Below, one piece after another: positions 60,625 to 63,193 of a stretch of 64,000 nucleotides of DNA. Under the pieces are notes generated by a model. That model searched no databases. It saw nothing but the letters and a program-made list of their open reading frames with translations, and was not told the DNA's origin. Position numbers and translations under genes: made by a program. Every line of letters starts with the position of its first letter. Position 1 is the stretch's first letter. The DNA comes from Sulfobacillus thermotolerans (GTDB lineage Bacteria > Bacillota > Sulfobacillia > Sulfobacillales > Sulfobacillaceae): the NCBI GenBank assembly GCA_002951815.1, contig CP019454.1, positions 1,116,001 through 1,180,000 on the forward strand, written 5' to 3'.

Positions 60625-61137
60625 GTAGGCGTGGGCTATTTAACCGTGTCTTGAAATGTCACCAGGTTATTTCTTTGTGTATATTATATTACCATCTGCA
60701 AACGACGCAGGATTCGATCTGAACGATGTCACCGCTTTAGCTATTGTCGCTAAATTACCATCCCTATGACATCATCAACAAGACAGGTTCGAATAAAAAG
60801 AGTTCGGCACACGGATTTCAGATGCCTGGGCTAGGGCTCTTTGCGTTGCTGCGTTTCCTAGATGGCTCCGCTGTCCAGAGCGTGCTCTGGGGCGTTCAAA
60901 TGTGGTTATGGTTTTGGATGAGTTCAGGAGATAAGAGCCAGCGCGGGCGTATCATGATGCATGGCGGGAATCCCCCAAGGCGCGCGGTTTTGGGTCGGGG
61001 GCAACGGTGCGAAGAAAATTTTGAGGTCAAAACCGTGGTCTGAGTTCGGGGTCCAACGGAGGGCTAATCATTTCTGTGCTACTCACCGCAATGTTAAAGC
61101 ATTTCACATTTATTATCTGATTATTCGTCTAAAAAAC
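60625..61137. other. Long gap with no recognisable gene
   Basis: About 510 bp between the SDR gene and the fba promoter. A weak frame at 60744-61043 (99 codons) has a TTG start, no ribosome site and no family resemblance. A 16-bp palindrome CCAGAGC-GT-GCTCTGG sits at 60875-60890. It may be remnant sequence. Confidence 0.4.
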
Positions 61138-61167
61138 TTGTGATGTGGTTCACAAAACAGTTATAAT
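61138..61167 (+). promoter_or_regulatory. fba-prk promoter overlapped by a Rex/Crp-type palindrome
   Basis: TTGTGA-N6-TCACAA (61138-61155) is an exact palindrome matching the Rex consensus and, equally, the core TGTGA-N6-TCACA of Crp/Fnr regulators. Its left half TTGTGA is also the -35 box, 18 bp from TATAAT (61162-61167). The leader to the GTG of fba is about 160 bases. A protein bound here would block polymerase. Confidence 0.6.
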
Positions 61168-61331
61168 AACTCTCGATGAGCCACACCATTTATCGGTATC
61201 GGCCCTCATCTCTTTTATAGGGTGAAATTGCTGAAAATTTGTAATACCTGAAATCATGAAGCCGATTGCGAAATTCCATTCCGTGGGTTCGCAAAAATGG
61301 CCATAGCAGGGACAAAAAAGGAGGGTCACGC

Positions 61332-62186
61332 GTGGGATTTGGATCATTTAATAGCTGGCTGCACGACGGACTAAATAAGGGATATGCCGTAGCGCAAATC
61401 AATATCAACAATCTGGAATTTGTCCAGGCAATTATTGAAGCGGCGGAGGAGGAGAAAGCCCCCGTTATTTTAGGAGCTAGTGAAGGCGCCCTTAAATACA
61501 TGGGGATCGACTACGCGGTGGCCATCTGCCGTACGGCGGCTGAGCGCGCGACAGTGCCTGTTATGTTGCATTTGGATCATGGACCTAATTTGGAATGGGT
61601 GCTCAAGGCGATTCGCTATGGATTTTCTTCTGTAATGATTGATGCGTCGCATCTGCCTTTGGAGGACAATATTGCATTAACCAAGAAAGTGGTCGATTTG
61701 TGCCATCCCCTTGGAATTGAAGTGGAGGCCGAGCTCGGACGGATTACCGGAACGGATGACGACTTAACTGTGGACGAACGACTCGCCACATTATGCCGCC
61801 CCGACGATGCTATGCGTTTTGTGGAGGAAACCCATGTCGACGCATTAGCTGCCGCTATTGGATCCGCGCATGGTCATTATCACGGCACGCCCCAACTTGA
61901 TTTCGAGCGACTGGCGGCCATTCGGGAAGCGACACAAATTCCGTTGGTGCTCCACGGTGGTTCAGGGATTCCTGACGAGGATGTGAAAAAGGCTATTAGT
62001 CTTGGCATTGCAAAAATGAACATTAATACCGACAACCAAGAAGTTTTCACCAAAAAGGTGCGTCAAATTTTGGCAAGCAACGAAACCCTTTATGATCCCA
62101 GAAAATATTTGGGCCCAGGCCGGGATGCTATCAAGGAAATGGTGAAGAGTAAATTGCGACTGACCGGCTCTGTCAATCGCGTCTGA
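61332..62186 (+). CDS. fba: Class II fructose-bisphosphate aldolase
   Basis: A 284-residue zinc-dependent aldolase cleaving or forming fructose-1,6-bisphosphate (sedoheptulose bisphosphate possible). The zinc/catalytic segment is HLDHGPNLEWV (Asp82-His83), with EVEAELGRITGTDDD carrying Glu, then AIGSAHGHYHGTPQLDFERL and LVLHGGSGIPDEDV with the second His, and the NINTDNQ phosphate site. The GTG at 61332 has an ideal AAAAAAGGAGG ribosome site. It is paired with prk, which suggests use in the Calvin cycle. Confidence 0.94.
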   Translation: MGFGSFNSWLHDGLNKGYAVAQININNLEFVQAIIEAAEEEKAPVILGASEGALKYMGIDYAVAICRTAAERATVPVMLHLDHGPNLEWVLKAIRYGFSSVMIDASHLPLEDNIALTKKVVDLCHPLGIEVEAELGRITGTDDDLTVDERLATLCRPDDAMRFVEETHVDALAAAIGSAHGHYHGTPQLDFERLAAIREATQIPLVLHGGSGIPDEDVKKAISLGIAKMNINTDNQEVFTKKVRQILASNETLYDPRKYLGPGRDAIKEMVKSKLRLTGSVNRV

Positions 62187-62245: not shown

Positions 62246-63193
62246 ATGGTACCAAAACGTCACCGCATTACAATGATTGGCATCGCGGGAGACAGCGGTG
62301 CAGGCAAGTCAACTTATGCCACGGCTCTACAAGAATTGCTAGGGCCAGACCGCGTAACGGTTTTGACACTAGATGACTATCATTCATTGGACCGTGATGA
62401 GCGTAATGCCATCGGCATTACGGCGTTGAACCCATGGAAGGCGAATAACCTTGGCCTTCTAGTGGATCATGTTTGGGCCTTGAGGCATGGTCGTCCCATT
62501 GTCAAACCGACATATGATCACGCGACCGGACGATTTGGCCCCATGGAAGAAATAGTTCCGAAGGATATTATCATTTTGGAAGGTTTGCATACCCTCTACC
62601 TGGAGCGTCTCCGCGAAGCCTTGGACCTGCGCATGTATTTTGACACGGACAATGAGTTGCGTGTCCGTTGGAAAGTGCGCCGTGATTCTGGGGCCCGTGG
62701 TTATACTCCCCAGGAAGTTTTGGCGGAAATTGAACGGCGACGTCCTGACGTCATGCGCTACATTGAACCGCAGAAAGCGTTTGCAGATCTGGTGATTCAC
62801 TACATGCCTGACGATTCGCAAGAACCCAGTCCCGAATACCCAGAGCCGGTGCGTGTGGTATTTGCTGAGAGACTACGGCGTAACAAGCGCATTTTGGTTA
62901 AATGGTTAGCCTTAGGAGCTCGCCTGGGGTTGGTGCATGCCGAACATGTACATGACATTGTGGAAGGCGAAGAAATGGAAGTGGCGGCACTTTGGGGAAC
63001 GACTCAGCAAACCGCGTTGCAGTCTCTAGTGGAAATGGTGTCTGACAGTCAGTTGTTTCATGAACACATAACCCGATTGGGGAAGACATTGGATTATGAT
63101 CCGATTGGTGTTTCGCGGATTTTAGTGGCTAGTATGATTTTGTTGTTGGACCGTAATTTTCGGCACGATGAACAAAGTCTGCGCCAAATGTAA
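62246..63193 (+). CDS. prk: Phosphoribulokinase
   Basis: A 315-residue P-loop kinase making ribulose-1,5-bisphosphate, the CO2 acceptor of RuBisCO. Walker A is GIAGDSGAGKST (about 12-23), with LTLDDYHSLDRDERN near 45-60, PTYDHATGRF near 90, and the catalytic/Walker B IILEGLHTLY near 110. The RxxRR-type RVRWKVRRDSGARGYTPQEV follows. The C-terminal domain is that of the PRK class II type. The ATG at 62246 has GGAGGGACTAAA before it. It probably shares the fba promoter. Confidence 0.94.
   Translation: MVPKRHRITMIGIAGDSGAGKSTYATALQELLGPDRVTVLTLDDYHSLDRDERNAIGITALNPWKANNLGLLVDHVWALRHGRPIVKPTYDHATGRFGPMEEIVPKDIIILEGLHTLYLERLREALDLRMYFDTDNELRVRWKVRRDSGARGYTPQEVLAEIERRRPDVMRYIEPQKAFADLVIHYMPDDSQEPSPEYPEPVRVVFAERLRRNKRILVKWLALGARLGLVHAEHVHDIVEGEEMEVAALWGTTQQTALQSLVEMVSDSQLFHEHITRLGKTLDYDPIGVSRILVASMILLLDRNFRHDEQSLRQM

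Follow-up and report, generated by a model that had tools for sequence, protein, structure and literature searches.

The binding of promoters by the redox-sensing repressor Rex is well known, and cydA is a textbook target. Operons for CO2 fixation are usually expected to be under CbbR-type control, and Calvin-cycle regulation in Firmicutes-type autotrophs has been little studied. Rex operators (ROP) are described from Staphylococcus aureus (TTGTGAA-W4-TTCACAA), Bacillus subtilis and Streptomyces coelicolor, and S. aureus sites confirmed by gel shift often deviate from the consensus at positions 1 and 7, the deviating sites usually being the weaker ones (PMC2883068). In Streptococcus pneumoniae, Rex represses fba, and the promoter was de-repressed once its operator had been mutated (PMC6018154). 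A Calvin-cycle target for Rex appears to be new, this extension being unreported in the literature that we searched: we found there no link between Rex and phosphoribulokinase in Sulfobacillus, nor between Rex and the Calvin cycle (the Rex-regulon comparison of Ravcheev et al., 2012, lay outside the scope of the search), and the Sulfobacillus genome literature examined mentions neither Rex nor a Calvin-cycle regulator. Here we describe a predicted operator of this kind in the acidophile Sulfobacillus thermotolerans, in a window of 64 kb (the whole stretch of DNA analysed), where a Rex-type palindrome overlaps the promoter of the genes encoding aldolase and phosphoribulokinase.

A palindrome on the fba-prk promoter

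The features of the locus are, in window coordinates:

61100 to 61109, no strand assigned: second conserved block CATTTCACAT, in which TCACAT is invariant in six members of the genus
61138 to 61155, no strand assigned: candidate Rex-type operator TTGTGATGTGGTTCACAA, an exact TTGTGA-N6-TCACAA with conserved half-sites and counterparts in two further genera
61138 to 61143, forward strand: -35 hexamer TTGTGA, which is the left half of the operator (promoter scan)
61162 to 61167, forward strand: -10 hexamer TATAAT (promoter scan)
61332 to 62186, forward strand: fba, class II fructose-1,6-bisphosphate aldolase (TIGR01859, 373 bits, cut-off 343; Pfam PF01116)
62246 to 63193, forward strand: prk, phosphoribulokinase (NF005655, 270.9 bits, cut-off 236; Pfam PF00485)

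The exact match to TTGTGA-N6-TCACAA claimed in the original prediction was recovered by pattern search without mismatch, all 12 half-site bases agreeing, and is the sole match in the window at up to two mismatches. Exact copies are expected from base composition at about 0.003 per window and 0.17 per 3.3-Mb genome, versus three found in the genome (3,317,203 bp); at up to one mismatch the palindrome occurs at 18 places in the genome, versus four for a reversed control pattern. The description of the site as an exact Rex consensus holds for this shorter form but not for the strict one (TTGTGAA-N4-TTCACAA), as position 7 is a T instead of an A, while the T at position 12 agrees with it. The left half does serve as a -35 box, as had been proposed, in a predicted promoter TTGTGA-N18-TATAAT that spans exactly 61138-61167 and matches 10 of 12 hexamer bases. 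We place the transcription start of fba-prk near 61174, which would put the centre of the operator near -28. An RNA hairpin was discarded as a reading of the palindrome, which lies upstream of this inferred start and so would not be transcribed. The GlnR-type motif is TGTNA-N7-TNACA, and a site of this type was likewise rejected, the spacing of the palindrome being 6 and not 7. The CATTTCACAT block farther upstream is possibly the site of a further regulator, either a half-site or a LysR-type box.

The two genes downstream are indeed the predicted class II aldolase and phosphoribulokinase, both scoring above curated cut-offs; fba starts with GTG, with AAAGGAGG just before it. Within the genus, this fba and prk are present in the same six genomes as RuBisCO and absent from the two genomes that lack it (one of these only 61% complete), which connects the operon with the Calvin cycle. 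Across 398 sampled genomes of the phylum, prk was found in only some members of the family; at the cut-off applied, no genome beyond the family gave a hit.

Conservation of the site among relatives

Absence of the palindrome before fba in relatives had been named as evidence that would speak against the prediction; it is present in all relatives with this fba-prk operon, that is in six of six genus members having these genes and upstream of all eight fba-prk operons recovered, which belong to three genera; its half-sites hardly vary, in contrast to its centre. In the six-member alignment of the genus, 11 of the 12 half-site columns are invariant, compared with 78 of the 278 other columns, and variation is seen at the four bases in the centre. 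Such invariant half-sites around a variable centre are the pattern of a site for a dimeric protein. All six members of the genus carry T at position 7, whereas the sister genera g9 and g10, whose fba-prk operons carry TAGTGAACGTGTTCACAT and TCGTGAACCCATTCACAA, have A and the GTGAA-N4-TTCAC form. When the upstream sequences were shuffled 2000 times, the observed score was reached 0-5 times in the genus, once in g10 and 27 times in g9, making the g9 site the weakest link. A -10-like hexamer follows the left half by 17-20 bp in all eight homologous promoters; such hexamers have a background rate of about one in three and so count as supporting evidence only. The three nearest relatives (loci L030-L032) carry the palindrome, more distant aldolase loci being uninformative. 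Operons led by prk in genera g4, g6 and g11 and in one g10 genome yielded no convincing palindrome, and a search of plasmids gave no match.

Other sites and a candidate regulon

Across the eight genomes of the genus, WTGTGA-N6-TCACAW occurs 47 times, versus two control matches. The scan for further copies near respiratory and cbb genes suggested by the original prediction was successful at cydA and gave a near-match at rpe-cbbX, but cbbLS has no palindrome. Upstream of cydA the motif is present in all eight genus genomes, mostly as the canonical TTGTGAA-N4-TTCACAA, and also in one sister-genus genome in the canonical TTGTGAA form. The cydA site does not overlap the apparent promoter but sits well upstream of it, and its mode of action may differ from that at fba. 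A canonical Rex-type palindrome was also found in six Sulfobacillus genomes between a TATAAT-like -10 box and the Shine-Dalgarno sequence of a small gene, located between acuC and ilvD, that encodes a zinc-ribbon protein of about 59-69 amino acids (CPVC...CENYPEC). This gene is a candidate for an undescribed Rex target. Its loci are:

L189 (genome positions 919000-925000, with the site at genome positions 921955-921972), L091, L094, L100, L176 and L184

We infer that cydA and the zinc-ribbon gene belong to the same Rex regulon as fba-prk. The same is probably true of rpe-cbbX, rpe being followed by the RuBisCO activase gene cbbX in the S. thermotolerans genome. A near-match TAGTGAGAAAATTCACAA lies upstream of rpe, identical in seven of seven genomes and, where inspected, just past a TTGACA-N17-GATAAT promoter; in loci L133-L139 the site TAATTAGTGAGAAAATTCACAAGGTT stands at the transcript start, 59-66 bp upstream of rpe, the distance in L134 being 208 bp. 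The identity of this site in the seven genomes includes its centre, which would not normally be expected of a simple dyad; the invariant centre may have a second function. The genome pattern search gave no strong site around the nuo-rex region.

Several further sites were observed. TTGTGAATGAAATCACAA (L003:1501-1518 and L093:1501-1518) overlaps the -10 region of a short gene encoding 117 amino acids; the two species share 22 bp at this place and encode similar proteins. TTGTGAAGTGGGTCACAA and TTGTGAAGTGAGTCACAA (L001:1501-1518 and L179) precede, in two species, a gene for a four-helix membrane protein of about 154 amino acids, for which no Pfam match was found. TGGTGAAATGACTCACAA (L005:1501-1518) lies between divergent genes resembling those of sulfur oxidation (Hdr-like, DsrE-like and lipoate-binding-like), where redox control of sulfur oxidation is possible.

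Rex or a Crp-family protein

The lack of a rex or Crp/Fnr gene would, according to the original prediction, have spoken against it, but the genome encodes one of each. The single canonical Rex (L027:3880-4512; NF003995, 222.9 bits, cut-off 126) is encoded downstream of nuoMN and a prenyl-synthase-like gene, and a rex gene is present in all eight genus genomes and in every near-complete genome of the family. The protein retains QVRKD and GTRGVGY for DNA reading as well as the NAD loop GAGHLG, the operator-reading and NAD-binding residues having been taken from Rex structures (PMC8836258). The single full-length Crp-family protein (L028:4587-5297) has the recognition helix RRETVTR; its gene, which lies beside a membrane-protein gene, occurs in seven of the eight genus genomes. 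In L028:3034-5297, L202 and L208, this neighbour is a multi-helix membrane protein without clear family, the relative in L208 having a weak match to COX1.

Binding of the fba-prk palindrome by this Crp-family protein, as repressor or activator, would be in line with the conserved presence of its gene, with the TGTGA-N6-TCACA core of the site, and with its left half TGTGAT, a classic CRP half-site whose T at position 7 is the invariant one described above. Yet next to the crp genes of the genus the sites take the form GTGATCA-N-STCACAA, GTGATCA-N2-STCACA or the like, in which position 8 is C and position 12 is G or C, both of which the fba sites lack; in this genus the genuine Crp-type site is probably GTGATC-N4-TCACAA, as present upstream of the Crp-family gene. 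The fba sites do not show this GTGATC pattern, and for all of them a Rex matrix gives higher scores than a Crp matrix, the margin being 5.1-6.6 bits (symmetric) or 6.1-7.9 bits (asymmetric), where the Rex matrix is partly circular, being built from cydA, zinc-ribbon and related sites assigned by motif and cydA context, and the small Crp matrix is provisional, resting on six sites picked for their nearness to crp. With the Rex matrix the fba sites reach 15-22 bits, versus 21-28 bits for most of the training sites, the lower scores being due to the T at position 7. The GTGAA-N4-TTCAC form at fba in the sister genera also speaks against a Crp-family reader, as does the predicted position of the operator, since a centre near -28 suits repression and is unsuited to class I or class II activation by Crp. 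Moreover, fba, rpe, the zinc-ribbon gene and the L003 gene each have a candidate operator that overlaps the start site or the core promoter, as is expected of a repressor. We therefore regard a Crp-family protein as an unlikely reader of this site, and the choice between Rex and Crp that the original prediction had left open is now tipped towards Rex by the matrix scores, the repressor-like position, and the bases found at positions 7 (A) and 12 (T) in two sister genera.

It is more doubtful still that Rex and the Crp-family protein both read the site and compete for it: their consensus motifs share TGTGA-N6-TCACA, and the half-sites invariant in the genus are hybrid in appearance (a left TGTGAT paired with a right TTCACAA), but the sister-genus sites have no Crp-like half. 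A chance palindrome, or a mere -35 box without regulator, for which TTGTGA would be a fair hexamer, is the least credible reading and one that conservation in sequence already appears to refute, as TTCACAA, the right half, does not vary even though the promoter spacer in which it lies requires no particular sequence, shuffled sequences hardly ever reach the observed scores, and the motif is enriched throughout the genus.

A predicted redox switch on the Calvin cycle

We thus consider it likely that the fba-prk palindrome is an operator for Rex, a prediction drawn from sequence comparison. At a low NADH/NAD+ ratio, a Rex dimer in its NAD+-favoured DNA-binding form would sit on the -35 box and spacer and block RNA polymerase; at a high ratio Rex would be released, aldolase and phosphoribulokinase would be made, and excess reducing power would be spent on CO2 fixation. 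CO2 fixation would then probably be switched by cellular reducing power. If true, a direct NADH-sensing switch on phosphoribulokinase would explain in a single step how a mixotroph restricts CO2 fixation to times of surplus reducing power.

RuBisCO itself is probably under other control, of LysR type. The palindrome was absent from the cbbLS promoters searched, and a LysR-type gene adjoins cbbLS in the genomes inspected, in agreement with the earlier remark that CbbR-type control is the usual expectation for such operons. An invariant block AATCCATATTTCACAAATA lies upstream of cbbL in six genomes (L220 and L222-L226); it contains TATTTCACAAATA, a T-N11-A dyad and candidate LysR/CbbR box. The cbbL block and the fba CATTTCACAT block have ATTTCACA in common (window 61101-61108), which suggests that dual control of fba-prk by a LysR-type regulator and Rex may exist; we regard this as a lead and not as a result. 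On balance, we lean slightly towards a wider model for Sulfobacillus and the two sister genera, in which Rex would directly gate both cytochrome bd and the regenerating half of the Calvin cycle (fba-prk, and likely rpe-cbbX in the same regulon); CO2 fixation would then act as an electron sink set by NADH/NAD+, RuBisCO being controlled separately by a LysR-type regulator.

Comparison with known systems

Compared with CbbR systems, the locus shares the LysR-type gene beside cbbLS and a conserved cbbL block that is partly similar at fba. Unlike the sites of those systems, the palindrome at 61138-61155 does not form a T-N11-A box, the 18-mer being a TTGTGA dyad, and it is absent from the cbbL promoters inspected. 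The operators of E. coli CRP and of the Fnr family share the TGTGA-N6-TCACA core with the fba site; yet in this family it is the crp-adjacent sites that carry GTGATC, which is lacking at fba, where the position suits repression. The half-sites and spacing are the same as in the ROP of S. aureus, B. subtilis and S. coelicolor, and as in these Gram-positive systems the site lies near or on the core promoter, cydA is among the motif-bearing genes and Rex is encoded. The differences from them are the T at position 7 in the genus and the target, a Calvin-cycle operon in a facultative autotroph. Closest in target is S. pneumoniae, which has a Rex operator at a class II aldolase gene; there, however, the aldolase serves glycolysis, whereas in Sulfobacillus it is joined to phosphoribulokinase and, within the genus, occurs only together with RuBisCO.
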